This document shows, piece after piece, positions 31,281 to 53,835 of a stretch of DNA of 64,000 bases (positions are counted from its first letter, which is position 1; every line of letters starts with the position of its first letter). Source of the stretch: Trachythela sp. YZ-2020 (lineage: Eukaryota > Cnidaria > Anthozoa > Malacalcyonacea > Clavulariidae); assembly GCA_016169945.1 (NCBI GenBank), contig JADLSH010000359.1, positions 62,001 to 126,000 of the forward strand. Reading direction: 5' to 3'. The position numbers and the translations under genes were made by a program. The notes beneath the pieces were generated by a model that saw nothing but the letters and a program-made list of their open reading frames with translations, did no database searches and was not told the origin of the DNA.

Positions 31281-31311
31281 ATATATACATGTCTTTCAAT
31301 AAGGTCTTCAT

Positions 31312-36927: not shown

Positions 36928-37122
36928 AGTAGTGGGGAAAGGGGGATTCTACCCGATTTTTAAAAATCACCTTTTACCAAGGCTCGCTAGCGCTCGCGAA
37001 TTGGGAGCCAACAAATAAGCAAATTTACAACACCTTCACCACATCATAACACGAACCTTATTCTTAAGGCTTGCTAGCCCCACTTGCACGCAAAGACACA
37101 CAATAAGATAATTTAAAGGATC
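36928..37122 (+). repeat. P2 left TIR
   Basis: 195 bp, complementary to 53822-54016. It contains a GC-rich patch GGCTCGCTAGCGCTCGCGAA and, at its inner edge, the TTTAAAGGATC element that starts the polymerase promoter. Confidence 0.95.
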
Positions 37123-37151
37123 ATATACTAGATCATTATAATAAAGGAGTG
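37112..37151 (+). promoter_or_regulatory. Putative early-type promoter of polB
   Basis: TTTAAAGGATCATATAC is followed 11 bases later by TTATAATAAAGGAG, then the ATG. The same two-part arrangement precedes four other P2 genes. It overlaps the TIR edge, so the same element occurs at both ends. Confidence 0.6.
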
Positions 37152-40100
37152 ATGAATACTTTAAGTTCAAAGAAATTAATCTTTCAACAAACTCAACGCG
37201 AGACTGTTTTAAACAACAACGTAAAAACTTATCAAGACAACACGATGAGGAAGGAGTATAACACCATTGACAAAGTTTGGGCTGAGACTTTGAAGCGCGA
37301 ACAAAAAATACAACGAAAGGAGCGACTTGGAAAAAACGCCGACGGTGATCGTGAAAACCTTAAAATATTAAAACAAAATGAGAAGGTAAGAAGGGATTTG
37401 GTTAGACAAAAAACTGATAGACGTGTAAGCGAGATGTTTAAAAAACACTTTGAAAATGAGAGTGCTATTAAGAGACGGCAGTGGGATCGTAAAATTCAAA
37501 AAGCAAACGTGAAGGAACTTAAAAGACAACAACAAATACTTAAAAAGGAGACCGCTAAGTGGGACCGTGAAATACAGGCTGAGATGAAAACAAGAAAAAA
37601 ATTAGAGGACCGATTTAATCAATTAAAAACTAGAGAGTTTAAAAGACATAGCACTAAGGAGTTAAAGGAGTGGACTCGTGATATAAAAAAAGAGGAGAAG
37701 AGACAAGCTAATGTGTTTGATGATATTAGGTGGAAGGGTTTAAACAAAAGATTAATTAAAAATAGGAACACGTTACGAAACAAACTGGAAAAAATTTACG
37801 AGAAAGGCAAAAATTTAAAGCCAAGATTAATCTCAGAGTCTATCAATAAGATGCACAGCAGGTGGACAATTAGTGGCGGGAACTTTAAAGACCCAAAAGT
37901 ATTCCTTGAGGTTACCACACGTGAGGTGGAGAAATTATTTAACAGCATCAACAGCGTAGGTAAGAAGGTGAACACAGTTTTACTGTGCAGGATGGTGAAA
38001 TTAGATGCAAAGACAGGTGGGACTATAATAACCATCTCACACTTAAGAAGTAAGACCCACAGCATTATTAGCGAGGAGGATTCTAACACAGAGTACAAAG
38101 TTATGAAGGCGGAGATGTTAGAGAATCTTGCTAAATTCCAAAAGGAGGGGAGCGGTTGGAGGTTTTTATCTGTGGAGGAGCTTGAGATCTACATTACTAA
38201 GTTTACACCCTTAGAAGGTAGTAGTTACAAACCATTACCAAGTATAATTAAAAACAAAAAGGCTGTTATTAACATGGAAAATGATGATGACCAATGTTTT
38301 AAGTGGGCGGTTACCAGAGCACTAAATCCTGCTAATATAGATAACAAAAACCCTGGACGTGTTTCAAAAATTCTTAAGATGCAGGCGGAGAAACTTAACT
38401 GGTCGGATCTTAAGTTCCCAATGACCGTCAAAGACATTACTAAATTTGAGAATAACAACGATGTTAATATTAATGTGTTTAGCTACGATGACGAAATAAA
38501 AAGTGTATACACTCTTAGACTAAGTAAGGGTCATAACACGAAGCATATTAACTTGTTCTTTCTTGATGAACATTATAGTGTTGTGAAAGATATCAGTAGG
38601 CTGGTATCATCACAGCTAAACAGACACCGCTGTAAAAAACACATCTGTCTTAGATGTTTGAACAGCTTTGGCACGTCAGAGTTATTAGACAAACACAATG
38701 ACCTGTGCGAGAGTCATGATCATCAAAGACATGTTTACCCACCCGAGGGAAGTTATGTATCATTTAAACAGTACCATAAAATACATAAGGTTCCCTTTGT
38801 AGTTTACGCCGACTTTGAATCATTTTTACCCCCCATAAGCACTGTTAAGAACAACCCCGACAAAAGCTTTACAGTAAAAACTAATAGACACGACCCAAGC
38901 GGCTATTTTCACACTATTAAGTGTATTGATGAGGACATATACCCTTTGAAGACGGTGAGATACACCATTCAAGAGGAGGGTGAGGACATCGGTAAAAAGT
39001 TTGTAGACTCGTTAGAGAAGTCTTTAAAAGATGTTTATAAAATATTAGAGAAGGTTGCCCCAATTAGAATGAGCGAAGCTGACGATAGAAATTTTTATAA
39101 TGCAAGAGATTGCTATGCGTGTGGGTTAAAATTAAATGATGACCGTGTAAGGGACCACTGCCATCTTACTGGGAAGTATCGTGGAGCAGCCCATAATGCA
39201 TGTAATTTAAAAATGAGAGCTCCAAAGTTTGTACCAGTTTTATTCCACAATTTGGAAGGGTACGACTCACACCTGTTTGTTAAAAGTTTAGGATTTACTG
39301 AGGGTGATATAAAATGCATTCCAAAAACTGATGAGAAGTACATCTCATTTAGTAAAAACATAGTAATGGAGACCTTCACCGACATAAAGGGTGTTGAAAA
39401 ACAAAAAACACTTGAGGTTAGATTTTTAGATTCACTTAAGTTTACTCTTAAGTCGTTAGATGCTCTTGTGGATGGTCTTGCACCCGACCAGTTTAAAACA
39501 CTAGAGAAAGAGATGGGAACGTCTGAGCTTCTAAAGAAGAAAGGTGTGTATCCGTACGAGTACATGACCGGTTTTAACAAGCTGAGTGAAACCAAACTAC
39601 CATCAATGTCGTCCTTTCATAGCAAGCTTAATGGTACTAACATATCAAACAAAGACTTCAAACACGCACTAAAAGTGTGGACGGAGTTTAAATGTAAGAC
39701 GATGAGAGACTACCACAATCTCTATCTAAAAACAGACGTCCTACTACTTGCTGACGTCATGGAAAACTATAGAGACGTTTGCATTAAAAACTATGGGTTA
39801 GATCCTCTCTGGTACTATACAGCACCAGGGTTAGCTTGGGATGCTGCGTTAAAAATTTCTAAAGTTAAGTTAGAGTTACTAACAGACCCAAACATGTACC
39901 TAATGGTAGAACAAGGTATTAGGGGTGGAGTTAGTACTATCACGAAGAGACATGCCAAGGCCAACAACAAGTATTTGAAAGTTTATGATCCTGAATTGGA
40001 TCAGATATTTATAATATATCTAGATGCAAACAACTTATACGGTTGGGCAATGAGTAGGCCATTACCCGTGGACGGGTTTAAATGGATGAGTGATAAGGAG

Positions 40101-41312
40101 CTTGAAAACTGGAATAATATATGTAATGAAGAAGGGAAGGGGTGTATATTAGAAGTAGATCTTGAGTATCCCACCCATCTACACGACCTTCACAATGAGT
40201 ACCCGCTAGCTCCCGAAAGTTTAACGGTAAACAAGGTGAATAAGCTTATTCCAAACCTTAACAATAAGACCAAGTACGTACTACATTATGAGAGCTTAAA
40301 GCAGTACATTAAACTGGGGTTAAAACTAACCAAAATCCACAGAGGCATTAAATTTAACGAAAGCATGTGGTTAAAAGAGTATATTCAGCTTAACACAGAC
40401 CTTAGGACGAAAGGTACCACAGACTTCGAAATTGACTTTTTTAAGTTAATGAACAACTCCGTTTTTGGAAAGACGATGGAAAACGTTCGCAACCGGGTAG
40501 ATATTAGGCTAGTTACTAAGCCTAATCAACTTCAAAAGCTAGCTAAAAAGCCCAACTTTCACGGTGTAAACACGTTCACTGAAAACCTAGCGGCGGTTCA
40601 CATGAATAGGACCACCATTAAATTAAACAAACCCATCTACTTAGGGATGAGTATTTTAGACCTGAGTAAGACGTTAATGTACGACTTTCATTATGGTTAC
40701 ATTAAAAACAAGTATGGTGACAAAGCACAGCTGTTATTTACAGACACAGACAGCTTGTGTTATGAGATTAAGACAGAGGACTTTTATAAAGACATCTCTA
40801 AGGATGTTCAAACACACTTTGATACCAGTAACTTTGACAAAGACCATCCATCAGGGATACCTACTGGTATTAACAAGAAGGTTATTGGTAAGCAGAAAGA
40901 CGAGTGTGGTGGGAAACAAATAGTTGAGATTGTAGGGTTGCGTAGTAAACTGTACGCGTACAAGATGGATGACAGCGAAGCGGAGGAGAAGAAGTGTAAG
41001 GGGGTTAAAAAGGGGGTTGTAAAGAATGAGATAACATTTGAAGACTATAAGGATTGTCTGTTCAGCGGTAAAAAGCAGCACAGAAGTATGAACACGTTTA
41101 GAAGTCGGAAGCATGTGATTTACACAGAGACTATTAACAAGGTAGCTCTAAGTGCTAACGATGACAAGAGAGTGATTTGCGAGGGTGAAGTAAACACGAT
41201 GGCGATTGGACATTGGAGGGTGTTACCAAAAAGTGGAGTTGTGTTAGCAAAATCAATCCCACTTCCAAAAACAAACACGTTGTGCTTACTAGCTCTTAAA
41301 CCTCTTAAATAA
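37152..41312 (+). CDS. polB: Protein-primed DNA polymerase B (pPolB)
   Basis: This 1386-residue polymerase should replicate the element from a terminal protein. A GTG lies one codon upstream, but the ATG at 37152 fits the promoter spacing. Residues 1-300 are highly charged and helical. Residues about 360-480 hold an MENDDDQCFKWAV segment (C382) and later DEHYSV (H474). A CKKHICLRCL/H/C finger follows at about 492-515. Exonuclease motifs are DFE (D554), FHNLEGYD (D705) and KTDVLLL (D862). Between ExoI and ExoII an endonuclease-VII-like insertion has CYACG (C654, C657) and DHCHLTGKYRGAAH (from 668). Polymerase motifs are LDANNLYG (D958), K1098-x3-NSVFG and FTDTDS (D1198, D1200), followed by KLYAYK. 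All catalytic residues are present. The stop codon abuts the next ATG. Confidence 0.96.
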   Translation: MNTLSSKKLIFQQTQRETVLNNNVKTYQDNTMRKEYNTIDKVWAETLKREQKIQRKERLGKNADGDRENLKILKQNEKVRRDLVRQKTDRRVSEMFKKHFENESAIKRRQWDRKIQKANVKELKRQQQILKKETAKWDREIQAEMKTRKKLEDRFNQLKTREFKRHSTKELKEWTRDIKKEEKRQANVFDDIRWKGLNKRLIKNRNTLRNKLEKIYEKGKNLKPRLISESINKMHSRWTISGGNFKDPKVFLEVTTREVEKLFNSINSVGKKVNTVLLCRMVKLDAKTGGTIITISHLRSKTHSIISEEDSNTEYKVMKAEMLENLAKFQKEGSGWRFLSVEELEIYITKFTPLEGSSYKPLPSIIKNKKAVINMENDDDQCFKWAVTRALNPANIDNKNPGRVSKILKMQAEKLNWSDLKFPMTVKDITKFENNNDVNINVFSYDDEIKSVYTLRLSKGHNTKHINLFFLDEHYSVVKDISRLVSSQLNRHRCKKHICLRCLNSFGTSELLDKHNDLCESHDHQRHVYPPEGSYVSFKQYHKIHKVPFVVYADFESFLPPISTVKNNPDKSFTVKTNRHDPSGYFHTIKCIDEDIYPLKTVRYTIQEEGEDIGKKFVDSLEKSLKDVYKILEKVAPIRMSEADDRNFYNARDCYACGLKLNDDRVRDHCHLTGKYRGAAHNACNLKMRAPKFVPVLFHNLEGYDSHLFVKSLGFTEGDIKCIPKTDEKYISFSKNIVMETFTDIKGVEKQKTLEVRFLDSLKFTLKSLDALVDGLAPDQFKTLEKEMGTSELLKKKGVYPYEYMTGFNKLSETKLPSMSSFHSKLNGTNISNKDFKHALKVWTEFKCKTMRDYHNLYLKTDVLLLADVMENYRDVCIKNYGLDPLWYYTAPGLAWDAALKISKVKLELLTDPNMYLMVEQGIRGGVSTITKRHAKANNKYLKVYDPELDQIFIIYLDANNLYGWAMSRPLPVDGFKWMSDKELENWNNICNEEGKGCILEVDLEYPTHLHDLHNEYPLAPESLTVNKVNKLIPNLNNKTKYVLHYESLKQYIKLGLKLTKIHRGIKFNESMWLKEYIQLNTDLRTKGTTDFEIDFFKLMNNSVFGKTMENVRNRVDIRLVTKPNQLQKLAKKPNFHGVNTFTENLAAVHMNRTTIKLNKPIYLGMSILDLSKTLMYDFHYGYIKNKYGDKAQLLFTDTDSLCYEIKTEDFYKDISKDVQTHFDTSNFDKDHPSGIPTGINKKVIGKQKDECGGKQIVEIVGLRSKLYAYKMDDSEAEEKKCKGVKKGVVKNEITFEDYKDCLFSGKKQHRSMNTFRSRKHVIYTETINKVALSANDDKRVICEGEVNTMAIGHWRVLPKSGVVLAKSIPLPKTNTLCLLALKPLK

Positions 41313-41819
41313 ATGAGTCTAAACTTTGGTTACTCAAATAAACGACGACAAGGATCAAAACACACCGACGCACCACCAAAAAGTCCTAAACCAAGTCTAA
41401 GAATGATGAACTATCAAATATATTACGCCGCGTTATCCAATTCTGCGGTAAGTACCCCATTTAGCTTAAATTCTGGATGGCCATCACCCGTTATGTTTTG
41501 CATATCTTCCAACGATGATGCCAGATTTGTAATAGCTAACCACACGTTTGACAAAGATGAGGTGATATCAACGTTAAAAATTAAGTATGTTTTTCACGCG
41601 TACAAACTTGATGGAACAGAGCAGGACATAGACCTTGCGGTTATTAAATACTCAGACTCACCAATAATAGTTGGTAACGTGTTCTTTTTAGGTAGAGAGT
41701 TTAAATTTAAAGATGTAACCTCTGACCACACAGTGCTTGCAGGTTTTAAACTTTACCTTCAACAAATTGGTACATCCTATGGTAACGAGTCTTGTTTAAA
41801 TATTTTGGTTGACTTTTAA
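41313..41819 (+). CDS. 168-aa protein of unknown function, beta-rich
   Basis: The ATG directly follows the polymerase stop in TTAAATAAATG, the start motif shared by most P2 genes. The N-terminal 30 residues are basic and proline-rich (RRQGSKHTDAPPKSPKPS). The rest has alternating hydrophobic residues suggestive of beta strands (IKYVFHAYKL, IIVGNVFFLGREFKF). No catalytic motif or membrane segment is visible. A small virion protein with a single beta-barrel is possible, but this is only inference. It is followed by a perfect hairpin at 41830-41855, shared with the convergent collagen-like gene. Confidence 0.72.
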   Translation: MSLNFGYSNKRRQGSKHTDAPPKSPKPSLRMMNYQIYYAALSNSAVSTPFSLNSGWPSPVMFCISSNDDARFVIANHTFDKDEVISTLKIKYVFHAYKLDGTEQDIDLAVIKYSDSPIIVGNVFFLGREFKFKDVTSDHTVLAGFKLYLQQIGTSYGNESCLNILVDF

Positions 41820-41829
41820 TTTGATGAGT

Positions 41830-41855
41830 TTGCGTATGTTTTAAGACATACGCAA
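41830..41855. terminator. Hairpin 3'-end signal (convergent genes)
   Basis: Perfect 10-bp stem TTGCGTATGT / ACATACGCAA with 6-base loop, 10 bases after the stop at 41819 and 21 bases before the end of the opposing gene at 41877. Confidence 0.7.
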
Positions 41856-41876
41856 CCTATTCCTTTAACATGTCCT

Positions 41877-42167
41877 TTAATTTTTTAAAATAGCATTTTG
41901 TAAAACACTATTATCTTTCTGTTTACCAAGCTTTGCTAATATAATTTTTTTCTTAAGTTTTGTGTTATGTTGGGTATGTAAACCTCTTAGTCCTTGATTA
42001 CCTTGTAATCCTTGTAAACCTCTTGGTCCAGGATTTCCTTGCACACCTTGTACACCTTGGACTCCTTGTGGTCCTTGCAGGCCTTGTACCCCCTGTGGGT
42101 TATGTGTGTAATCAAAAACACTTTTTAAAATATATGCTCCAACTCCAAGCCCAATTATCATTGCCAT
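41877..42167 (-). CDS. Membrane-anchored collagen-like protein
   Basis: A 96-residue protein with an N-terminal hydrophobic anchor ([18 protein letters not shown]) followed by 13 uninterrupted Gly-X-Y triplets (from [10 protein letters not shown] through GLRGLH, about residues 26-64) and a basic C-terminal tail. Collagen-like repeats form trimers and occur in fibre-like virion proteins of several large viruses. With the anchor it would place a collagen stalk on a membrane. Glutamine dominates the Y position rather than proline, which would lower helix stability. It is divergent from the next gene with only 20 bases between start codons. Confidence 0.8.
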
Positions 42168-42187
42168 AGTCTTTTATTATATAATAA
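42168..42187. promoter_or_regulatory. Palindromic bidirectional start region
   Basis: The 20 bases between divergent ATGs contain the perfect 16-bp palindrome TTTATTATATAATAAA (42173-42188), so each gene reads TATAATAAA toward its own start. This is the late-type start motif used in both directions. Confidence 0.6.
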
Positions 42188-42586
42188 ATGGAGCAGGTTA
42201 TAAACTTTTCTGAAAGTGAACTTACAGAGGTAAGAGATGATGTTGCAATTAAACTACCTCAAATGAAAAAACGAATCTTTAAAAAGAAGATCAAACTGGT
42301 AGGGAAGACACTACTTAAAATAGTTCTTGTGGTTGGCGGTGTCGCAGTGGCTATTATATTTCCTTCTGCTATCGTGGTAGCCGCTCTTGGCGGAGCAGTT
42401 GCGATAATAGATGGTGGTAGAGGAACAGTTAATGGTATGAAAAAAGTTAAACATGAGAACAAAAAAAGGAAGACCGGTAAGGGTGATCTAAAAGAAGTGG
42501 AGTCTGAGCTTTTAAAGCGAAAGATGACAAGAGAGCTTGTTGAAAGTCTTCAACCATCAGCACCACCACTTTACCCAGGATTGTAA
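42188..42586 (+). CDS. Membrane protein with PSAP/PPLY late-domain C-terminus
   Basis: 132 residues. The N-terminus is acidic, followed by a basic stretch (KKRIFKKKIK). Two adjoining hydrophobic segments (about 41-58 and 60-74) lie before a lysine-rich region. The last residues are QPSAPPLYPGL. PSAP (123-126) is the Tsg101-binding late motif and PPLY (126-129) is a PPxY motif for Nedd4-type ligases, overlapping by one proline, as in retroviral and other enveloped-virus budding proteins. This suggests ESCRT recruitment at a membrane (inference). The start is in TATAATAAATG, and a perfect hairpin follows at 42599-42627. Confidence 0.83.
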   Translation: MEQVINFSESELTEVRDDVAIKLPQMKKRIFKKKIKLVGKTLLKIVLVVGGVAVAIIFPSAIVVAALGGAVAIIDGGRGTVNGMKKVKHENKKRKTGKGDLKEVESELLKRKMTRELVESLQPSAPPLYPGL

Positions 42587-42598
42587 AACCCATTTAAA

Positions 42599-42627
42599 TT
42601 TTTCATTTACATCTAGTAAATGAAAAA
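42599..42627. terminator. Hairpin 3'-end signal (convergent genes)
   Basis: Perfect 12-bp stem TTTTTCATTTAC / GTAAATGAAAAA with a 5-base loop. It sits between the stop at 42586 and the end of the opposing gene at 42640. Confidence 0.72.
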
Positions 42628-42639
42628 ATACGGGCCAGT

Positions 42640-43122
42640 TTAAACCTGTGGATCTATGTCCTTCAGGTCCTCCTGTTTAGATGTGTCTTTTCGCTTATAC
42701 ATCATATGCTTTCCAACGACTAACCCACCACAAAGCAAGCCAATGTATGGGAGGTATGGTGTTATATGACCGAGAATGCTCTTTAAGTCTTTTTTTATAA
42801 GATGGTTGCTTTTTAGCTCTTTTTCCATCTCATTTTTGTCATCGATGGCGTTTAAACTATCCATCAAGCTTGAAAACTTTGAGATTAAATTGTCCGAGAT
42901 GAACTCGTTGGTCTCATCCAGCTGCTTCCTATCATACTCTTTTTTTATCTTTTCTAAGGTCTCTTGGTTAGCCTTTTTAAGATACTTCTCTGTTTGTTTA
43001 ATTTCTCCTTTTGCGCTTAACGTGAGAAGCTCCTCACGTATGTTAGACGCTGTGTCCGGCTCGCTTGCGGAAGTAGCTTTCTCACCTGCGTTATCTTTGA
43101 AAAATGTTTCTTCTTCGCTCAT
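42640..43122 (-). CDS. 160-aa helical protein with C-terminal membrane segment
   Basis: No known domain. Residues about 25-110 are charged and likely coiled coil (KKANQETLEKIKKEYDRKQL). A hydrophobic segment at about 120-139 (ITPYLPYIGLLCGGLVVGKH) is followed by a short basic tail, consistent with a tail-anchored membrane protein. It starts in TTATAATAAATG. Its 5' end overlaps the next upstream gene (43309-43091) by 32 bases. Confidence 0.72.
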   Translation of the reverse strand: MSEEETFFKDNAGEKATSASEPDTASNIREELLTLSAKGEIKQTEKYLKKANQETLEKIKKEYDRKQLDETNEFISDNLISKFSSLMDSLNAIDDKNEMEKELKSNHLIKKDLKSILGHITPYLPYIGLLCGGLVVGKHMMYKRKDTSKQEDLKDIDPQV

Positions 43123-43309
43123 TTATTATAACGGGCTGCGTATAAACAACAAACAAAGCACCACCAATTGCGAACAAGATGACTCCTATTGCGAACAAGA
43201 CAAACCCTATTGCGAGCAAGGTGAAACAAATTGCGGACTGGAGCGGCTTACGTTGAATATACAACGCTATGTGTGAAAGGGTGTCGACGTAGTACTTCAA
43301 GTCTGGCAT
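43091..43309 (-). CDS. 72-aa double-membrane-segment protein with LFAIG repeats
   Basis: The small protein is mostly hydrophobic, with AIGFVLFAIGVILFAIGGALF formed by a threefold 18-bp repeat containing TTGTTCGCAAT. The start lies in AAATAAATATG, the usual motif. It overlaps the ATPase 3' end by 62 bases and the next gene by 32 bases. The length and hydrophobicity suggest a small virus-type membrane protein. Function unknown. Confidence 0.6.
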   Translation of the reverse strand: MPDLKYYVDTLSHIALYIQRKPLQSAICFTLLAIGFVLFAIGVILFAIGGALFVVYTQPVIINERRRNIFQR

Positions 43310-43850
43310 ATTTATTTGTTCTTAACTTCTCTATAATATCACGCTCTTGGTCCTTAGTGACGTGAAGAGACTCTTCTAAGAAACAACTCATGTCCTTTCT
43401 AGTTGGGTTGTAAAACGTAACCATTTTAGACGTGTTGTCTCTATAAGGCTTTGTTATACTTGTTAGCTGCTGCGTGATAACAATTGTGCTTAGGTTGTAA
43501 TGTCTTGCGGAGAAGGCAAGTCTTACCATTTCACTTGTTCTATTTTTAACTGACTGACTACTAGCACAGTCATCTAGGATGATAAGACTATTCGTACCAC
43601 TATACATCTTAGTGATGTACTTTAAAAAAGCCTCCACATCGTCTTGCTCACACGGTATAGGAAAGAACTTGTCATCGTTTTTATACTTCCAATTTTGATA
43701 CGTTTGGTTGTATAAGTAGGTTGGACAAATTAAAAAGATGTACTCAAAGTGATCCTTGTAGTCACTTTCTAGCATCTTGAGGAGGTAGTAGGTCTTACCA
43801 CACCCCGTCATTCCAACTATTATCATGTTAAATGGTGTTTCTAACGTCAT
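43248..43850 (-). CDS. A32/FtsK-like genome packaging ATPase
   Basis: A 200-residue P-loop ATPase of the compact viral packaging type. Walker A is GMTGCGKT (13-20) right at the N-terminus, as in Polintons and virophages. Walker B is SLIILDDCA (acidic D93, D94). A following TIVITQQ (about 122-128) fits the sensor/QQ motif. It should drive double-stranded DNA into the capsid. The size is typical. It sits directly downstream of the capsid gene in the same direction, with a hairpin between them, and starts in TTATGAATAAATG. Confidence 0.92.
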   Translation of the reverse strand: MTLETPFNMIIVGMTGCGKTYYLLKMLESDYKDHFEYIFLICPTYLYNQTYQNWKYKNDDKFFPIPCEQDDVEAFLKYITKMYSGTNSLIILDDCASSQSVKNRTSEMVRLAFSARHYNLSTIVITQQLTSITKPYRDNTSKMVTFYNPTRKDMSCFLEESLHVTKDQERDIIEKLRTNKYARLEVLRRHPFTHSVVYST

Positions 43851-43864
43851 TTATTCATAACATT

Positions 43865-43889
43865 TTTCCTAACCCATTAGGTTAAGAAA
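43865..43889. terminator. Hairpin 3'-end signal after capsid gene
   Basis: 10-bp stem TTTCCTAACC / GGTTAAGAAA with one mismatch and a 5-base loop. It lies 16 bases beyond the end (43905) of the minus-strand capsid gene. Confidence 0.6.
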
Positions 43890-43904
43890 TATTAATTATC
43901 ACAC

Positions 43905-45131: not shown

Positions 45132-45179
45132 TGTTACTCTTTATTAGTATGTTTTAGTTGTTGTTAAAACTTCGCATTT

Positions 45180-45476: not shown

Positions 45477-45488
45477 TTATTAGTGTGT

Positions 45489-45600: not shown

Positions 45601-45660
45601 TAGTTTGTTAAATTTGTACTTCACTTTAATCACCTACCACTTTTTCTTATTTACTGTGAT

Positions 45661-45880: not shown

Positions 45881-45911
45881 TCTTTATTATAGTAATGTTG
45901 TATATATTTTT

Positions 45912-47393: not shown

Positions 47394-47415
47394 TTATTTA
47401 TACCCTCTAAAATAA

Positions 47416-48100
47416 ATGAGGAAGAAGATAACAGTGTTTATAGAAAACAATGAGAAGGAGCTCTATCTTGACGCTAACATCTCAAACAAGCACGCCAAGT
47501 CAACGATGGTTTTAAAGAACGCGGCGGTCTTTTGGAAGTTTAAAAATGTTGTGTCTGATGTTAACGACTTCATATTGTATGGTGCGGCGGTTAGCGTTAG
47601 TAATAAAAGTCAAAAAATCATGTTCGGAGAGGGTTACTGAACGTTTGACATGATTAAAGACAAGCTGAAAGAGTACGACGTAACGCTAGTGGAAATAGAA
47701 CACAACAACACATGTAAAATAACGTCTAAAAATCATATGTTGGACCTTGACAATTTCGCTCCGCTGCTTGGTTTTCCGAAGAAGCAAATTATAAATGACA
47801 ACGTTGGGGGTACTGTTGTTTGGGAGAACTCGCCTAACGTTGTTGACATAAACCAAGGATTGTCTCACATTTACATTGACTGCGACATTATAGACACATC
47901 TATGAATTTTAACACGCGCGGTGAGAGGTGTTTTACGTTTTTCAGAGCAAATTTTAAATTCTTCTGTAACATTTTATAAAAATATTAATAGCGAAGCCTT
48001 AATAGACAACGGATGCTTTAACAGACTACTCTTCACCGTTGGTTCAAACATCGAGCAAAAGGTTGATATGAGCTTACTACTTGAGCTGTATATAGAGTAA
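47416..48100 (+). pseudogene. Minor-capsid-like protein gene with in-frame TGA and a frameshift
   Basis: Two frames in register (47416-47637 and 47641-47979) are separated only by TGA at 47638-47640. The protein then shifts frame near 47930-47970, where an overlapping frame runs to the stop at 48098-48100. Features such as FAPLLGFPKKQI, NPVD-like NSPNVVDINQ, HIYIDCDIIDTS and a final FTVGSN segment resemble a Polinton-associated beta-rich minor virion (penton-like) protein as I remember the family. The start ATG has AAAATAAATG. It is adjacent to the integrase. Breaks may reflect recent decay, sequencing error or recoding. Confidence 0.6.
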
Positions 48101-48105
48101 GATAA

Positions 48106-49230
48106 ATGAATAGCGAACAAAGTGAGCAAAGCAAGGTGAGCGGAGCGAGCATAAACGATAATGAGTTCGTCATTGAACAAAAACTGCGAGACATCTACTA
48201 CGACCCAAGCACAGGCTTTCAGTCTATAGAAAGGTTGTATCAAAAGGCAAAAGACTCCGGGTTAGCTGTTAGTCGTAGGATTGTAAAAGACTGGTTAAAA
48301 ACACAAGACACCTATACAATACACAAACCTGTTATAAGAAAACACAAATTTCAAAGAACGTTCGTTAAAGACTTAGCCGACCAAGTACAGATGGACTTGG
48401 TTGACATGGGGAAGTATAAAAACAAAAACAAGGGCTACTATTGGATACTAACAGCTGTTGAGATCCTAAGCCGTTACGCCTTCACAATACCGGTTTATAG
48501 GAAGGACACTAAAAACATGACTGCCGCTGTGGGTGAGCTACTAGATAAGTTTAAGGAAAGGTTTAAGCAGTATCCAAAAACCGCACAGTTTGACGAAGGT
48601 AAAGAGTTCTACAATGTTGGTGTAAAAACCCTGTTAAAAGAGCATGATGTGAACTACTTTTCTACAAACTCAGACAGAAAGGCCGCCATAGTTGAAAGAT
48701 TTAACCGTACATTAAAAACATCTATGTGGAAGTACTTTCATAAAGAAGAGACCTTCAACTGGGTTAACGTGTTAGATGAGCTTACGTACAACTATAACCA
48801 CACCAAGCATAGTAGCATACTAATGAAGCCGGCTGATGTAAGTGAGTTAAATAAAAACCAAGTGTGGATTACACTATACGGTTATGAATTAGGTAAGTTT
48901 CCGACGCCAAAGTTTAAAGTTGATGACATCGTTAGAATAAGTAAGTATAAAAATATTTTCAAAAAGGGGTACGAGGCAAACTTTACAGAGGAAAAGTTTA
49001 AGGTTAGCGGTGTCTTTAGAGGTGACCCAAACATGTACGAGATAGTGGACAATGAAGCGGAACCAATTATTGGTAAGTTTTATGAAGAGGAGATGAGTCA
49101 TGTAAACAGTCCACACACGTACGAGATAGAGAAAATTTTAAAGAGAAGGAAGGGGCAAGTGTTGGTAAAGTGGGTCGGATATAACAACAAACACAACTCA
49201 TGGATAAGTGAAAAAGCTATTAATAAATAA
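48106..49230 (+). CDS. int: Retrovirus-like DDE integrase with chromodomain
   Basis: 374 residues. The N-terminal helical region (GFQSIERLYQKAKDSGLAVS) is followed by the rve catalytic core with QMDLVDM (D97), QFDEGKEF (D163) and IVERFNRT (E197), spacing DDX33E. A C-terminal chromodomain (about 325-370) has YEIEKILKRRKGQVLVKWVGY and SWISE, as in Polinton integrases, likely directing insertion to chromatin. All three acidic residues are present. It produces the 6-bp duplication seen at the P2 borders. The start lies in AAGATAAATG, five bases after the preceding gene's stop. Confidence 0.96.
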   Translation: MNSEQSEQSKVSGASINDNEFVIEQKLRDIYYDPSTGFQSIERLYQKAKDSGLAVSRRIVKDWLKTQDTYTIHKPVIRKHKFQRTFVKDLADQVQMDLVDMGKYKNKNKGYYWILTAVEILSRYAFTIPVYRKDTKNMTAAVGELLDKFKERFKQYPKTAQFDEGKEFYNVGVKTLLKEHDVNYFSTNSDRKAAIVERFNRTLKTSMWKYFHKEETFNWVNVLDELTYNYNHTKHSSILMKPADVSELNKNQVWITLYGYELGKFPTPKFKVDDIVRISKYKNIFKKGYEANFTEEKFKVSGVFRGDPNMYEIVDNEAEPIIGKFYEEEMSHVNSPHTYEIEKILKRRKGQVLVKWVGYNNKHNSWISEKAINK

Positions 49231-49235
49231 ACAAA

Positions 49236-50507
49236 ATGGATGCTGAAGATATTGGTAGAGAGGACATAGAAATGAAGGAACGTGATCGCGCTCAAGATGC
49301 AGAAAACGCTGATGAGGGTGAGACGAGCTTTGGTGGTCAACGTGATGAAAGCGTTCTTATTTTTGATGGATCAAACCCTGTGTTTACGAGAGTTGACGAT
49401 GATATATCAAGTAGGCTTAAAAAAGTTGGGGAAAGAGATCAACGTCGTGATGAAGGTGCTATAAAACGTCATATCATTCACGATAAAAAACAGTTTTTAA
49501 AAATTGGGCTTGGTATTACTGTTAACAAGGGAGACGGTCCAAGCTCAACAACGCTATACGACAAGTTAGAAACCACCTTCTCTGAAAAAACTAATGAGAT
49601 TAATGGTGCAAAATACAAAGGTAAAAAAATTTTGTTTCTAAAAGCTGGTAATATGGAGTACTCCACAGACAAAACAAAATTAGCGTATGTTAACGAGTTT
49701 AAGGAGCTACTCAAAAAGGCCAACAAAGAGTATCAAAAAACTCCAGCTTCTATTGCAGATAAAAGTGCTGGTGTTGATCTCCCACAAGACGTCATGGATG
49801 ACATCGCAAGCAATGTAAGTGAAAGGATAGAATCTGAGATTAATGATAGGGTTGATGATATAACAGTAAACAAAGAGATAACAGAAAATGAGATAAGAGA
49901 GCTAAGCGGTGCTCTTCACCCAAAAGGCTCACTAGAAGTACAACTCGAGGCTTTAAAGAAAAATAAAGATTACTGGAACAAAGAGGCAGAAAAAGAAAAA
50001 GCTAAGGGAAATGAGGCTAGGTCAGTACTATGTAAGTCTATTGCAGAAGTCTCCGAGTTAAAGATGGATGCTATTAGGTTAAAACTTAACCTAAAACCAG
50101 AGAGTGAAGCTGTAAAAGACATGGTTAAAGAGGAAGCTAAGACTAGCGACTTAACTAAGCTTGAAAAATTTAAAAAATGGGCGAAGAAAAATATTGTAGG
50201 ATTGTCTGCGGTGGCAATAGGTATCGCAGGTTTAATAACATCAATCATTAGAAGTGGAAGAAACGTGGCTAATAAAGGGGCAAACGCTGTTAAAAAGTTT
50301 GCAAAAAGTGTTAAAAACACGGCTGCAAAGTTTGGTCCTATAATAGGTGCGATTGGAAATATCATCGCAAGCATTATAAGGATAATAGCTGACTGGCTTA
50401 AGTGGTTGGGTTCAAATTTATGGATGTTGGCCTTAGCATTAACGTATTTTGTTTACAGCGAGTATAAAGACTACCGAAAAAGTAAAAGGATTAAATCGAG
50501 AAGTTAG
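49236..50507 (+). CDS. 423-aa protein with C-terminal multi-membrane region
   Basis: It follows the integrase by 5 bases (start context ATAAACAAAATG, weak match to the start motif). The first 310 residues are hydrophilic with helical heptads (LEVQLEALKKNKDYWNKEAE). The C-terminal region has hydrophobic segments at about 320-338, 367-385 and 391-408 separated by lysine-rich amphipathic helices (NAVKKFAKSVKNTAAKFGP), and a basic tail. A similar C-terminal pattern is familiar from Polinton-borne proteins of cnidarians, function unknown. It may insert in the virion membrane or perforate host membranes (inference). Confidence 0.75.
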   Translation: MDAEDIGREDIEMKERDRAQDAENADEGETSFGGQRDESVLIFDGSNPVFTRVDDDISSRLKKVGERDQRRDEGAIKRHIIHDKKQFLKIGLGITVNKGDGPSSTTLYDKLETTFSEKTNEINGAKYKGKKILFLKAGNMEYSTDKTKLAYVNEFKELLKKANKEYQKTPASIADKSAGVDLPQDVMDDIASNVSERIESEINDRVDDITVNKEITENEIRELSGALHPKGSLEVQLEALKKNKDYWNKEAEKEKAKGNEARSVLCKSIAEVSELKMDAIRLKLNLKPESEAVKDMVKEEAKTSDLTKLEKFKKWAKKNIVGLSAVAIGIAGLITSIIRSGRNVANKGANAVKKFAKSVKNTAAKFGPIIGAIGNIIASIIRIIADWLKWLGSNLWMLALALTYFVYSEYKDYRKSKRIKSRS

Positions 50508-50545
50508 TTTAAAGGATCGTATACAAAAACATACTAATAAAGAGG
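50508..50545 (+). promoter_or_regulatory. Putative early-type promoter
   Basis: TTTAAAGGATCGTATAC, then ACTAATAAAGAGG immediately before the ATG at 50546. Nearly identical to the box at 51549. Confidence 0.65.
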
Positions 50546-50833
50546 ATGGTTTGTAAAATTAACTTAACAGTCGACGAGTGTGGTATTAAAGTTACTTTCT
50601 CAAACAGGTATATGTGTCCCATTTGTGACTACATTGGAAACTCTGATGAAATAACAACACATGTTAAAGAGTGTCACTTACATATCAACGGTGAAATTAA
50701 GTTTAAGTGTCCGTACTGTGTGTATATAACTCCTAACCATGATAATTACAAAAGACATAGAGAAGAGGAGGACCATAAGTTTAGTTTGTCAGAAGGTAAT
50801 GACTATGTTGTACCCATTTCTAACAATTGGTAA
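50546..50833 (+). CDS. Two-finger C2H2-like zinc protein
   Basis: 95 residues with two zinc fingers: C24-x2-C27...H39-x4-H44 and C55-x2-C58...H71-x5-H77. The fingers are spaced by KCxYC-type linkers (KFKCPYCVYI). It probably binds nucleic acid and may regulate transcription of the element, fitting its early-type promoter (inference). No membrane segment. A hairpin follows at 50847-50874. Confidence 0.82.
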   Translation: MVCKINLTVDECGIKVTFSNRYMCPICDYIGNSDEITTHVKECHLHINGEIKFKCPYCVYITPNHDNYKRHREEEDHKFSLSEGNDYVVPISNNW

Positions 50834-50846
50834 GACACAGCGTAAG

Positions 50847-50874
50847 ATTCCTTAGACTTTATTGTCTAAGAAAT
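50847..50874. terminator. Hairpin 3'-end signal
   Basis: 11-bp stem ATTCCTTAGAC / GTCTAAGAAAT with one mismatch and a TTTATT loop, 13 bases after the stop at 50833, followed by a T-rich tract. Confidence 0.68.
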
Positions 50875-50896
50875 TATTTTTTTTTAGTTATAATAA

Positions 50897-51127
50897 ATGG
50901 CAACTACACAAAAGGATGTATTAAATGAATTGTACACCGCGGCTGTTATTACAGCAGGTGCAATGGGAATTTCATATGCAAGCAAAAAATTTGCAAAGGA
51001 CCCACTTGGTCTTCCAGCAACACTAAGTGGTGCTGCTAAACTCTCTGTAGTTTTTGGACTAAGCGCTGTTGGAGTAAAGATGCTTCAAGATAAAAAGTAT
51101 CTTCCAGACAATCCATTCAAAGAGTAA
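50897..51127 (+). CDS. 76-aa membrane protein
   Basis: Two hydrophobic segments (about 12-28 LYTAAVITAGAMGISYA and 39-62 with SGAAKLSVVFGLSAVGVKM) and a short polar C-terminus (DKKYLPDNPF). The start in TTATAATAAATG is canonical. Co-directional and 14 bases upstream of the next small gene. Likely a minor virion membrane protein. Function unknown. Confidence 0.75.
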   Translation: MATTQKDVLNELYTAAVITAGAMGISYASKKFAKDPLGLPATLSGAAKLSVVFGLSAVGVKMLQDKKYLPDNPFKE

Positions 51128-51141
51128 GCAAGCAATAATAA

Positions 51142-51552
51142 ATGGCAAGCGTTGTAGCAGCAGGATCATTTAATGCACTAGCGTTCGCAGGTGCCGGGTT
51201 TATATTTAAGTCACTCGATAAGGATGAGTATGAAGAAGAAATGGAAAGACATAACCTAGCGATGGAAAAATTAGCAGCTGCTAAAGAAAAGTGGTACGAG
51301 AACCTAGCCGAAAAGAAAAACAAAATGGCTTTACTACGTCAAGAGTTATCTGATGCTAACGCAGATATAAACACAGTAAACACCGCTTTGGACAACCTTC
51401 GAAAAATTACTTATCAAGACAAAACATTCACAAGACTCCCACACATCTCAGACTACTACACCCCATCTGATAAGATGAAAGAGTATCAAAACGTTGCCAT
51501 TGGAGTCATCGGACTGATTGGTGGATGGGGTGCTTATAAATTGATATTTTAA
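51142..51552 (+). CDS. 136-aa coiled-coil protein with hydrophobic ends
   Basis: A hydrophobic N-terminus (about 4-24), a coiled coil (EEEMERHNLAMEKLAAAKEK, about 31-75), a central loop with LPHISDYYTPS and a C-terminal membrane-like segment (VAIGVIGLIGGWGAYKLIF). I recognise this layout as a recurrent Polinton-associated protein without known function. Start in AATAATAAATG. Confidence 0.75.
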   Translation: MASVVAAGSFNALAFAGAGFIFKSLDKDEYEEEMERHNLAMEKLAAAKEKWYENLAEKKNKMALLRQELSDANADINTVNTALDNLRKITYQDKTFTRLPHISDYYTPSDKMKEYQNVAIGVIGLIGGWGAYKLIF

Positions 51553-51585
51553 AGGATTGTATACAAAAACACACTAATAAAGGAG
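51549..51585 (+). promoter_or_regulatory. Putative early-type promoter
   Basis: TTTAAAGGATTGTATAC, then ACTAATAAAGGAG directly before ATG 51586. It overlaps the stop of the preceding gene. Confidence 0.65.
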
Positions 51586-52329
51586 ATGGATGTTAAAAGT
51601 AAAAAACTAGTTATTAAACTTCAAAGTTTAATGTGTCAAGATCAAATGCCGAGCAAACAAGACTTTAAAATGAATGTCTGTGGTAAGGTTTTTATCCCAC
51701 AAACGTATCTTAATAAGATGTATGAATTTGTTGAAGTCATGCAAAAACACCCACAACGAAATTTTCTTGTTCACGCCATGTATGATGTTTTTCATTATTA
51801 TTTAATGATGTTGAAAACAGTTGAATTGATGCATGAACACATTACCGAACACGTTGTTGAACTAAGTCAAAGATCAAACTTGCCATATGTAAAGGCTAAC
51901 ATGATATGGTACACCCCGTTAGAACACGATTTACAAAAACCTGGAATGGATGATCTTATTATTAAAATGCCAAAAAGTTTATGTCGTCAAGGAGGGCTCT
52001 TCATGTATTTACCAAAATCTAATGCTTTAAGATCAATGTGTACTTTTGGAGACATGTTTTTAAGGTGCGGAATTGGATATGGTCGCAATTTTTGCATAAA
52101 ATCTGAAGGTGAACAACTTGAAAATTTAAATTGCTCATTACATAGTGTTTATAAGTCTCATTTAAACAATAGTGAACCAATAATACCACTAAACAATGTT
52201 GGCATTAAATCATTAGTGTGCTTTGAAAAGCCAAAATCATCTAGAAGGTGGTCTTTTAAAACAAAAAAATACTCTATGGTGTACTCAGCAATTGTTAATA
52301 AGGATCAAAATAATATGCTTGATAATTAA
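51586..52329 (+). CDS. 247-aa protein of unknown function
   Basis: No recognisable domain. It is rich in Met, His and Leu, with a helical His-rich stretch (HAMYDVFHYYLMMLK, TVELMHEHITEHVVEL) and a basic C-terminus (RRWSFKTKK). No signal peptide or clear membrane segment. Its early-type promoter and position beside two zinc-binding genes suggest an early regulatory or replication accessory role (inference). I considered the missing adenovirus-type protease, but no His-Asp-Cys triad pattern is convincing. Confidence 0.75.
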   Translation: MDVKSKKLVIKLQSLMCQDQMPSKQDFKMNVCGKVFIPQTYLNKMYEFVEVMQKHPQRNFLVHAMYDVFHYYLMMLKTVELMHEHITEHVVELSQRSNLPYVKANMIWYTPLEHDLQKPGMDDLIIKMPKSLCRQGGLFMYLPKSNALRSMCTFGDMFLRCGIGYGRNFCIKSEGEQLENLNCSLHSVYKSHLNNSEPIIPLNNVGIKSLVCFEKPKSSRRWSFKTKKYSMVYSAIVNKDQNNMLDN

Positions 52330-52342
52330 TAACCTATCACAA

Positions 52343-52370
52343 ATTTCAAAGGCTTTATAGTCTTTGAAAT
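52343..52370. terminator. Hairpin 3'-end signal
   Basis: 12-bp stem ATTTCAAAGGCT / AGTCTTTGAAAT with one G-T wobble and a 4-base loop, 13 bases after the stop at 52329. It shares the TTTCAAAG core with the two hairpins at 53252 and 53356. Confidence 0.7.
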
Positions 52371-52373
52371 GTT

Positions 52374-52410
52374 TTTAAAGGATTGAATACTAGTTACTAA
52401 TAAAGAGACA
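52374..52410 (+). promoter_or_regulatory. Putative early-type promoter
   Basis: TTTAAAGGATTGAATAC, then TACTAATAAAGAGACA before ATG 52411. Confidence 0.62.
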
Positions 52411-53229
52411 ATGAACGTTTGTAATTTCAAAGAAAGCAAATTAAGTTATGGCAGCGAGTACAATGACTCGTATGGTAATGACTGCAATCACCTTAATAAG
52501 TGTAGGGGTGATAATGGAATAATGTTCTGTACAAGTTGTGGGATTGAGGACGATGATGAAGTCACATACGAAAACAAGTTTAGTCAACACCACTTTAAAA
52601 ATGATAAAAAAGTAAGCAATAAAAAAACAAAGAACAAAACATGTTGTGAGGCTTGTGCACGGTGTGTAAGTTGTGACCGCTCACTCGTCACAGATAGGAT
52701 TATTAAACGAGTAAGGGATTGGAATCATAGATGTGCAACATCAGATGAAAACAAATGTAATCATAATGATCATAAAAGATTAGAGATGAATAACTGTGTG
52801 TGGTGCTTTGGTTGTGGATACCTCTTTATGGATAAAATTTGTAAAGGTAGAAACACCATGCTCACCATTGATAGTGAAGAGGATAGCGAGTACAGTAGTA
52901 GCAGTGATGAAGACAGCGAAGCGGAAGACGATGTAAAACCTATAATCACAAGCGTTGCAGAGTTAAAAGCCTTAGCAAAAAAACAAAAGGTTAAATACTA
53001 CACAAGAATGAGCGCGGAGGATCTTTGTAAAAGACTAAAGGTTGAGATCACAAAATTTAATAAGTATGTCTTCACAAACACAAAGACAGGAAAGCAATAC
53101 AGATTCCCAACCATCTTCCAAGCGGCAAAGAAAATGAAAGTTAACCCAGGCCTAATATCTTACTACCTAGGAAAGGAGATAACAATAGATGGAATAACAT
53201 ATTCATTACAAGAGATGAAAAAAACTTAA
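52411..53229 (+). CDS. Cys-rich zinc protein with SAP-like and NUMOD1-like helices
   Basis: 272 residues in three parts. Residues 1-145 carry many Cys/His pairs (FCTSCG, CCEACARCVSCDRS, CVWCFGCG), probably several zinc sites. Residues about 152-175 are an acidic serine tract (SEEDSEYSSSSDEDSEAEDD). Residues 182-210 (VAELKALAKKQKVKYYTRMS) fit a SAP-like DNA-binding helix pair, and 219-266 (RFPTIFQAAKKMKVNPGLIS) fit a NUMOD1-like helix-turn-helix module. The combination suggests a DNA-binding regulator or replication accessory. Domain calls are by eye. Early-type promoter upstream, hairpin downstream. Confidence 0.72.
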   Translation: MNVCNFKESKLSYGSEYNDSYGNDCNHLNKCRGDNGIMFCTSCGIEDDDEVTYENKFSQHHFKNDKKVSNKKTKNKTCCEACARCVSCDRSLVTDRIIKRVRDWNHRCATSDENKCNHNDHKRLEMNNCVWCFGCGYLFMDKICKGRNTMLTIDSEEDSEYSSSSDEDSEAEDDVKPIITSVAELKALAKKQKVKYYTRMSAEDLCKRLKVEITKFNKYVFTNTKTGKQYRFPTIFQAAKKMKVNPGLISYYLGKEITIDGITYSLQEMKKT

Positions 53230-53251
53230 AGTAAACCTGAATAAGCAAAAT

Positions 53252-53281
53252 ATTTTCAAAGGTCTTATGATCTTTGAAAAT
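53252..53281. terminator. Hairpin 3'-end signal
   Basis: 13-bp stem ATTTTCAAAGGTC / GATCTTTGAAAAT with one G-T wobble and a TTAT loop, after the stop at 53229. Confidence 0.7.
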
Positions 53282-53355
53282 TATAAAATAGATTTATAAA
53301 GTAAGCCCCGAACAAAGTAAGCCCCGAACGAACGTGTTAGCAAGGTAAGTCAATT

Positions 53356-53387
53356 AATTTCAAAGGTCTTAAATGATCTTTGAAATT
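53356..53387. terminator. Hairpin 3'-end signal for the opposing gene
   Basis: 13-bp stem AATTTCAAAGGTC / GATCTTTGAAATT with one G-T wobble and a 6-base loop, 21 bases beyond the end of the minus-strand gene at 53409. Confidence 0.7.
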
Positions 53388-53408
53388 GTAATGCTATGTT
53401 ATGTTAGC

Positions 53409-53791
53409 TTAGTCTTCAGGACACTCATCATTAAACTCTGACTCACCTATTTTTCTTAGCTTAGTCACTTTGAAGACAAGGTATTTACTAAGACCTTCCT
53501 CAACGCTTTTTGTGTATACACCTGTAATTTTAAAGTGTATTGTGATATTCATTTGTTTTTTATTTAACAGCTCACTTTCTTGCTTAGCTGATAACATTTT
53601 TGTTTTTAAGTACAACAACCCATTGTACAGTTGTGTTTTTGTACCATGTTCATATGCTAGACTTTTAATTTTGTCTTCAACATTTTTAGGCATGATCGTT
53701 GGAATGACATGCTAAACTTGTCTTCCTTCACCCCCCATGTGAATGCTTCATTGAGTTCAAATTTAACTTCACTTAATTCTTTGAATGACAT
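53409..53791 (-). pseudogene. Right-end gene, probably frameshifted, function unknown
   Basis: The promoter-proximal ATG at 53789-53791 opens a frame of about 44 codons. The longer frame (53693-53409, 94 aa, beginning MPKNVEDKIKSLAYEHGTK) starts inside it in a different register. The early-type promoter spacing points to the upstream ATG, so I read one gene of about 127 codons with a single frameshift between 53700 and 53680. No domain is recognised. A two-gene overlap is the alternative. Confidence 0.55.
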
Positions 53792-53835
53792 GTTACCTCT
53801 TTATTAGTATAATTTTTATACGATCCTTTAAACTA
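53792..53835 (-). promoter_or_regulatory. Putative early-type promoter of the right-end gene
   Basis: On the minus strand TTTAAAGGATCGTATA, then ATACTAATAAAGAGGTAAC before the ATG. It mirrors the polymerase promoter at the opposite TIR edge. Confidence 0.62.

Follow-up and report, generated by a model that had tools for sequence, protein, structure and literature searches.

Are animal Polintons live viruses with a regulated cycle? The 64-kb stretch of DNA analysed here, which we call the window, holds one such element, P2, and the grammar of its gene starts and ends bears on this question. An earlier note had proposed two promoter classes in P2, an early type with an upstream box (here box A) followed by a second box near the start codon (here box B), and a late type with a box fused to the start codon.

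The Element

The element at 36928-54016 is a Polinton. As in other Polintons/Mavericks, it is bounded by 200-nt terminal inverted repeats (TIRs) with three mismatches and by a 6-bp target-site duplication, ATTTTA. It encodes an rve integrase of the Polinton/Maverick kind (PF00665 at 35 bits, cut-off 32.6; a chromodomain match lies just below the Pfam cut-off), a packaging ATPase (Pox_A32, 60.5 bits) and a double-jelly-roll major capsid protein, whose predicted model (pLDDT 84.7) matches giant-virus and mavirus capsid proteins.

36928..54016, no strand, Polinton P2, whole element, with target-site duplication ATTTTA on either side
36928..37127, +, left TIR, 200 nt, ending in the 16 nt of the polB box A
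53817..54016, -, right TIR, 3 mismatches against the left, with the right-end gene's box A as its inner 16 nt
37152..41312, +, polB (family B DNA polymerase), early type
43248-43850, -, packaging ATPase gene, start element GAATAAATG at 43848..43856
43905..45131, -, gene of the major capsid protein (double jelly roll)
48106..49230, +, rve integrase gene, with GATAAATG as start element

The polymerase is assigned to the protein-primed type of family B through homology: P2's own polB gives only a sub-threshold endonuclease VII match in Pfam, and one homologue, 64% identical and among the at least 120 matches listed, carries PF03175. No relative of this polymerase was found among PDB sequences, nor any of the capsid protein in viral contigs with the protein and its alignment as queries. 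Other anthozoan genomes do contain homologues. Among the P2 proteins scanned for protein families, no protease family that could represent a capsid maturation protease was seen, most late-type genes had no match, and the match of the C2H2 protein fell under its Pfam cut-off.

A Common Start Element

Nearly all P2 genes have one start element in common, xAATAAA(G/TG), corresponding to box B.

Box B reads TAATAAAG in polB (37139..37146, +), the C2H2 gene (50535..50542, +), the 247-aa gene (51575..51582, +), the Cys-rich gene (52398..52405, +), the right-end gene (53799..53806, -) and, unfused and with no box A, the capsid gene (45139..45146, -). The element is AAATAAATG in the 168-aa gene, where it is fused and overlaps the stop of polB (41307..41315, +), in the 493-aa gene (47391..47399, -) and in the gene with its ATG at 47416 (47410..47418, +); the last two genes are divergent, and their ATGs (47393 and 47416) are separated by 22 bp. 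It is TAATAAATG in the 132-aa gene (42182..42190, +), 20 bp from the start of the divergent collagen-like gene, and in the 160-aa (43120..43128, -), 98-aa (45474..45482, -), 76-aa (50891..50899, +) and 136-aa (51136..51144, +) genes.

AATAA is fused to the ATG at 9/20 examined P2 starts versus 0/591 other ATGs of the element (Fisher 5e-15). Of the ten fused sites that had been listed, however, exact TAATAAATG is present only at 42188, 43122, 45476, 50897 and 51142; those at 41313, 43850, 47393 and 47416 read [AG]AATAAATG, and AAATAAATATG at 43309 is 2 nt off. Fusion at almost all other genes also proved too broad a statement, the exceptions being the capsid (45131-), collagen-like (42167-) and 423-aa (49236+) genes. 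These show a third arrangement, in which TAATAA begins 12-15 nt before the ATG without box A. The integrase start at 48106 carries GATAAATG, and the frame at 47650, which has no box of any kind, is probably not a gene start. Across the 80-56% families, AATAAA is kept at 17/20 capsid starts and absent from those of L065, L068 and L074. Box B appears to behave like an initiator.

A TATA-like Box in Five Genes

TTTAAAGGAT occurs exactly five times in the window, each time at a P2 gene start (37112+, 50508+, 51548+, 52374+ and 53832-), which confirms the shared box reported for polB and the C2H2, 247-aa, Cys-rich and right-end genes; the boxes at 37112 and 53832 belong to the TIRs, one forming the inner end of each copy, and are thus not independent within P2. 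Genome-wide, TTTAAAGGATYRWATA has 133 occurrences versus 6 for a reversed-pattern control, with genome places taken from the first 100 of the 133 matches.

The TATA-like box A occupies 37112..37127 (+) in front of polB, 50508..50523 (+) in front of the C2H2 gene, 51548..51563 (+) in front of the 247-aa gene, where it overlaps the 136-aa gene's end, 52374..52389 (+) in front of the Cys-rich gene and, inside the TIR, 53817..53832 (-) in front of the right-end gene.

Two details of the original description had to be corrected: the gap between the boxes, given as 10-15 bases, amounts to 6-9 bases from the 16-mer to ACTAATAAAG, and this second box is not found in all five genes, polB carrying TATAATAAAG there. 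From the start of box A to box B we measured 26-27 nt in 64/80 contexts and 24-28 nt in 75/80. Other families have a different sequence (TTAATGG, TTTAAAGGCACT, TATATAAG) at the unchanged position; at loci chosen by capsid position rather than by motif, GTTAATRG stands at 26-28 and TATATAAG at 27, while TTTAAAG(G/A)C(A/G)CTYGWTYT stands at 28 before four starts of L096, a locus chosen in the same way. As its position is constant while its sequence varies, box A resembles a TATA box near -30, and it is best read as a putative TTTAAAGG-like core with a family-specific extension. Such a family-specific box would offer a handle on what switches each Polinton family on.

AAATTGA, which precedes some box-A sites, was considered as a mimivirus-like early promoter and rejected, being the end of the preceding coding sequence in the 247-aa gene. 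The two-box pattern gave two matches in viral contigs, both inside phage-type coding frames and hence attributable to chance.

Two Putative Promoter Classes

The proposed split into two classes held up: in diverged copies of the same genome, the same gene families carry, or are without, the upstream box, and boxes at orthologous genes of related elements are kept in many of these copies. The split by gene role is likewise borne out, polB and accessory genes having box A and capsid and ATPase genes lacking it. The overall reading is nevertheless only partly supported, since the early class is not defined by its second box. ACTAATAAAG, taken to be special to this class, and the 'late' TAATAAATG are one and the same start element, and the difference lies in the TATA-positioned box; box A and box B as one 'early motif' was rejected because box B is common to both classes.

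The TATA-like box was found at 10/10 early-type versus 1/144 late-type starts at loci chosen by capsid position, and at 59/59 versus 0/185 at all loci. Twenty-eight loci (L001-L028) had been selected through the box itself, the copies are related to one another, the TATA-like expressions were written after the families had been seen, and the early-type genes covered come from families other than the 70% and 59% ones (6 loci without a polB match). One start, L097:4510 (-), mixes the classes by combining TTATAAGG with a fused GAATAAATG, and in L087 the homologue of the right-end gene lacks a clear box A. Divergent late-type starts lie only 20 and 22 bp apart, leaving no room for a -30 box between them.

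Hairpins Downstream of Stop Codons

Seven palindromic hairpins, from a scan in which G-U pairs were allowed, lie 7-22 nt downstream of the stops of nine genes. As in the Mimivirus type of hairpin end, these palindromes stand between open reading frames just past the stops, and their sequence is not conserved.

41827..41858, no strand, palindromic hairpin where the 168-aa and collagen-like genes converge
42597..42629, no strand, palindromic hairpin where the 132-aa and 160-aa genes converge
43862..43892, -, hairpin 3' of the capsid gene stop
50847..50874, +, hairpin then T-run 3' of the C2H2 stop, with compensatory changes across families
52341..52372, +, hairpin 3' of the 247-aa gene
53252..53281, +, hairpin 3' of the Cys-rich gene
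53356..53387, -, hairpin 3' of the right-end gene

For the C2H2 hairpin, 5/12 pairs show compensatory change among 17 sequences, a number reached by 2/500 shuffles; this support comes from adding five rows of other families to the 12 of the P2 family, which on their own give one compensatory pair (237/500 shuffles as high), and further pair types in the 17 rows are no more frequent than in shuffled ones (362/500). The capsid hairpin (8 of 22 distinct sequences) has 1/11 pairs compensatory and a slightly unfavourable covariation term of +0.59, and the capsid genes of other copies have a different hairpin or none within the first 65 nt. No pairs were counted on the 160-aa hairpin, as its alignment is out of register between families. 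Comparable palindromes occur in the window's host DNA too (67 in 36.4 kb), and neither a viral RNase III nor a poly(A) polymerase domain was found among the P2 proteins scanned.

Proposed Expression Programme

The boxes, their spacing, the constancy of the classes over the families covered, the hairpin positions and the compensatory change in one hairpin are visible in the sequence, while start sites, factors, timing and hairpin processing are inferred; together they suggest an early/late gene programme of the element's own. The reading we favour, with some reserve, is one start element used in host-style TATA/initiator promoters early and in TATA-less, near-leaderless ones late, with 3' ends set by hairpins. 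Our literature searches gave no account of this kind for Polintons. Early-type genes would comprise polB and the accessory genes near the right end, with box A as the TATA-box equivalent, its first base preceding box B (xAATAAAG) by about 27 nt, and transcription starting at the T-A step within box B, 30-32 nt from box A. Such a start would resemble a host RNA polymerase II TATA/initiator promoter, so that these genes could be transcribed ahead of any viral factor. In the mouse data excerpted from PMC1779604, the distance from TATA box to start site is mostly 30-31. The spacing in P2 is compatible with the 27-34 bp, mostly 30-31, expected of an RNA polymerase II TATA/initiator promoter if the T-A of box B is the start.

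Late-type genes (capsid, ATPase, other conserved genes and the integrase) would rely on box B alone, which often overlaps the ATG and would then yield almost leaderless mRNAs, and depend on a factor made or recruited later. For several genes, the palindromic hairpin rather than AATAAA would set the transcript end. The division of polB and accessory from virion genes, recurring down to 55% capsid identity, and the structured ends are what a working virus would maintain; as the grammar predicts starts and ends with a precision of a few bases, a single dataset of transcript ends would be enough to test it. It is conceivable, if rather doubtful, that animal Polintons of this lineage run a true viral programme, whose TATA-less late initiator, overlapping the start codon, and hairpin ends are not used by host polymerase II alone and call for a helper giant-virus polymerase or a late factor of the element's own. 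With a helper polymerase, these Polintons would be virophage-like in an animal.

Alternatively, and in our estimate improbably, the signals serve a foreign polymerase, supplied as for virophages by a cytoplasmic giant or pox-like virus that co-infects the cell, with the ATG-fused box B as late initiator and the hairpins as polyadenylation sites of that virus. Against this, box A at 27 nt from box B resembles a host TATA/initiator promoter, and we know of no giant virus of this host. No RNA polymerase domain was found in 20 P2-region proteins (E<=0.1), which would fit a foreign enzyme, most P2 proteins matching nothing at all. Further points in its favour, from passages of the works cited, are the hairpin 3' ends without fixed sequence in Mimiviridae and Marseilleviridae (PMC4402537, PMC5413956), the family-specific promoter motifs that virophages have in common with their giant virus (PMC8547959, PMC10945749) and the Vaccinia late initiator TAAAT (PMC1550435).

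We consider it quite unlikely that box B, containing AATAAA, chiefly provides the upstream gene with its poly(A) signal, the fused ATGs merely resulting from tight packing. Tandem genes do have the next box B 10-70 nt past the preceding stop (98-aa to capsid 35 nt; C2H2 to 76-aa 59 nt), and a poly(A) signal may be its second role there. The earlier note had argued against this function from divergent pairs, and rightly: starts 20 and 22 bp apart carry box B on both strands, no AATAAA lies within 360 nt at 6/6 convergent gene ends (the collagen-like end has ATTAAA at 57), and the spacing of box B to box A is fixed. There is very little to recommend AATAA as a translation-start context instead of a transcription signal; the 9/20 versus 0/591 count would agree with it, but the element stands 9-15 nt upstream in the polB, C2H2, 247-aa, Cys-rich, right-end, capsid and collagen-like genes, and it is the distance of box B to box A, not to the ATG, that stays constant. 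Both were rejected as the main role of box B. Functionless boxes shared by recent descent, which the many copies 92-100% identical in capsid protein might suggest, are the least credible, as box positions persist at 55-59% capsid and 63% polB identity where flanks and box-A sequence differ.

Comparison with Known Systems

Poxviruses use their own polymerase, in the cytoplasm, and their late promoter element overlaps the start codon; baculoviruses encode their own late RNA polymerase. The poxvirus parallel drawn earlier holds for the overlap with the ATG and not beyond it. The late promoter TAAAT(G) (TAAAT in the passages of PMC1550435 used here) is A/T-rich like the P2 element, but it was not found at P2 start codons, where the core before the ATG is AATAA and the fused element [TAG]AATAAATG, unfused in some genes; the box also stands 9-15 nt upstream. 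According to the same passages, baculoviruses resemble P2 in an early TATA plus initiator and an A/T-rich late initiator, (a/g/t)TAAG (PMC1550435). Unlike in baculoviruses, no polymerase domain was found in the 20 P2-region proteins, though most P2 proteins match nothing.

In Mimiviridae and Marseilleviridae, as the sections of PMC4402537 and PMC5413956 drawn on describe, sequence-variable palindromes just past stops replace AATAAA as they would in P2, but these viruses encode RNase III-like and processing enzymes, none of which was recognised in P2. EMALEs and mavirus parallel P2 as related elements integrated in one host, each family with upstream motifs of its own; unlike P2 they have single-motif types tied to a giant virus, and the sections of PMC8547959 and PMC10945749 used here do not describe TATA/initiator spacing or a two-class split.

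White spot syndrome virus, a nuclear DNA virus of an invertebrate, is far larger than P2, and its late motif, a degenerate ATNAC 30-220 nt from the ATG, differs from that of P2; its starts are mapped, whereas those of P2 are predicted (passages of PMC1550435). In the same account (PMC1550435), its early genes have a TATA box and initiator as for host polymerase II and its major structural genes are mostly TATA-less with a short start-site motif, both as proposed here for P2.

P2 and its relatives in the host genome

The element discussed here, P2, is a Polinton whose polymerase belongs to family B by homology, with every one of 7992 scored candidates at E≤0.001; among the 120 homologues listed, one of 64 % identity carries PF03175, and those named include Paramuricea, Stylophora, Exaiptasia and Nematostella, which would fit a cnidarian host. 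Protein family search also found an integrase (rve) and an ATPase of Pox_A32 type in P2, and the predicted structure of its capsid protein (pLDDT 84.7) matches giant-virus and mavirus capsid proteins of the double-jelly-roll type. The host assembly (578 Mb, 396 contigs) holds 103 capsid matches, part of them partial, at 100 %–55 % identity, which were the source of the loci compared with P2 (numbered with L). They cluster at about 100–96, 92, 80, 70, 59 and 55 % identity, with open frames in many; the Polinton population of this genome is large, layered and partly young.

Further inverted repeats at 28317–28848 and 54115–54607 (270 nt at 97 %, with shorter arms besides) enclose P2 and the DNA to its left, as though P2 were part of a larger inverted structure. 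Also left of P2, at 30667–31328, units of 9 and 15 bases form an array in a strongly GC-skewed stretch (−0.33).

Features of P2: element, gene starts and gene ends

36928–54016: P2, with 200-nt terminal inverted repeats (TIRs, 3 mismatches) and 6-bp target-site duplication ATTTTA
TATA-like box A present: polB, C2H2, 247-aa, Cys-rich and right-end genes (early-type)
Start element fused to ATG: 168-aa, 132-aa, 160-aa, ATPase, 98-aa, 493-aa, 74-aa, 76-aa and 136-aa genes; integrase with GATAA
Start element unfused, box A absent: capsid, collagen-like and 423-aa genes; 72-aa gene 2 nt off
Hairpin at gene end: 168-aa/collagen-like pair, 132-aa/160-aa pair, capsid, C2H2, 247-aa, Cys-rich and right-end genes

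Two classes of gene starts

An earlier note had proposed a common motif at five genes, which is borne out by exact TTTAAAGGAT occurring five times in the window, each time at a P2 gene start; the gap between box A and the start element (box B, xAATAAA(G/TG)) was put at 10–15 bases and measures 6–9. AATAA lies within 20 nt of 18 of the 20 P2 starts examined, with GATAA at the integrase and neither at 47650, and is fused to the ATG at 9 of these 20 versus 0 of 591 other ATGs. Genome-wide, TTTAAAGGATYRWATA was counted 133 times versus 6 for its reversed control. The same note gave almost all other genes a fused motif only; nine genes have it, as does the integrase with GATAA, and it is unfused in the capsid, collagen-like, 423-aa and 72-aa genes.

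A gene starting at 47416 is probably broken by a stop in the P2 copy, the frame at 47650 being its remainder, which would account for the missing box; in L034, a related copy, the frame seems to continue across the matching position. By resemblance, this gene, 47416–47979 (+), may encode a minor capsid protein. The right-end gene, 53409–53791 (−), is split in P2 (44 aa and 94 aa) and uninterrupted in other genome copies (about 130 aa, e.g. L092). The box A of polB and that of the right-end gene form the innermost part of the two TIRs, 36928–37127 and 53817–54016, whose identity stops exactly at the inner end of the box, so that the genes at both ends have the same putative promoter box, carried by the repeat. 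At 45477–45911 (−), the start element TATAATAAAG at 45889 precedes a short frame with a longer one nearby, which suggests a decayed small gene. Start elements also precede both collagen-repeat genes, that of P2 (41877–42167 (−), PF01391) and that of a 700-aa repeat protein in the 56 % family (L097:965–2443 (−)), whose products look like virion fibres.

Across all loci, box A was found at 59/59 early-type and 0/185 late-type distinct homologous starts, counting those with a usable ATG and at least 75 nt upstream; L081–L086, of the 70 % and 59 % families, gave no match for early-type genes. The start picker favours ATGs after AATAA and thus inflates start-element counts, leaving box-A counts unaffected. 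Because L001–L028 had been selected by motif, we repeated the count on L029 onward and found a TATA-like box at 10/10 early-type and 1/144 late-type starts, using an expression composed after the families had been seen, with a chance rate of 2 % in P2 42-mers. Capsid starts of the 80–56 % families keep AATAAA in 17 of 20 cases; the others show degenerate forms (L065, L068) or none (L074). The predicted promoter class goes with the gene.

Position and sequence of box A

The loci compared contain 112 distinct TTTAAAGG contexts; the fuller box is present in 81, and a start element accompanies all of these except one in L006. In these mostly motif-selected loci, the distance from box A to the start element is 26–27 in 64/80 and 24–28 in 75/80 cases. 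The remaining five are 14, 16, 16, 36 and 36; the first also has a start element at 27, whereas the rest deviate by about one helical turn. Loci selected by capsid position have different box sequences at the same place. In the 92 % family, the polB, C2H2, right-end and Cys-rich-like genes carry [GT]TTAATRG at 26–28 nt from their start element. The boxes of L095 are TTTAAAGGATCGTGCA and TTTAAAGGATCGTTTA, plus TTAAATGG at its C2H2 gene, overlooked by the search expression. TTTAAAG(G/A)C(A/G)CTYGWTYT stands at four starts of L096, and in the 56 % family TATATAAG occurs at 27 and TTATAAGG at 25. Exceptions are L097:4510 (−), where TTATAAGG occurs together with a fused GAATAAATG, and the right-end homologue of L087, in which no clear box A was found. 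The position of the putative box is more conserved than its sequence.

A TATA box near −30 combined with an initiator at +1 would give this layout. Transcription is predicted to start 30–32 nt from box A; in mouse, the commonest spacing is 30–31, with most within 27–34 (PMC1779604).

That box B is mainly the poly(A) signal of the preceding gene is disfavoured. Two divergent start pairs, 20 and 22 bp apart, carry the element on both strands, and none of the six convergent gene ends has AATAAA within 360 nt, with ATTAAA at 57 for the collagen-like gene. The earlier note, too, rejected this reading on the strength of divergent pairs; in tandem pairs the element may also act as poly(A) signal of the preceding gene. 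That AATAA before the ATG merely reflects translation context is disfavoured, as its distance to box A is kept while that to the ATG varies.

Hairpins at gene ends

Nine genes are followed by a palindrome 7–22 nt past the stop, seven palindromes in all. If G-U pairs are counted, the intergenic DNA of P2 (1,286 bp) contains 8 palindromes and its coding DNA (15,403 bp) 14 (p=1.5e-4), one of the eight, at 45531, being away from gene ends; all six 13-pair palindromes are intergenic. Host DNA in the window has 67 palindromes in 36.4 kb. In the C2H2 hairpin, 93.6 % of cells are paired over 17 sequences and 5/12 pairs show compensatory changes, a number reached in 2/500 shuffles (13 compensatory cells in 0/500), and slid structures gave 0–1 compensatory pairs. 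When only the P2 family is considered, one pair of this hairpin covaries. In L036 and L044, a different stem takes the place of the 160-aa hairpin. Reports on Mimiviridae and Marseilleviridae describe hairpin-based 3′ ends (PMC4402537, PMC5413956).

Comparison with known systems

None of the papers found on Polintons, virophages and mimivirus describes a Polinton promoter grammar in its title or the opening of its abstract, the adintovirus description lying outside this scope. In a vertebrate Maverick paper (PMC8097293), "promoter" appears twice, once for an insertion site and once within a reference, and it is absent from the main text of a cryptophyte PLV paper (PMC12220804).

The best-supported model would combine an early class with promoters of host TATA/initiator style, a TATA-less late class with an element close to the start codon, and transcript ends set by hairpins. 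Domains of an RNA polymerase, an RNase III or a poly(A) polymerase were not found by family search among the proteins scanned; a helper-virus polymerase might possibly read the late class. In poxvirus late genes, too, a promoter element overlaps the ATG, as in the fused starts of P2. White spot syndrome virus and baculoviruses follow a similar two-class promoter logic (PMC1550435), and EMALE virophages have family-specific motifs (PMC8547959), as do the relatives of P2.
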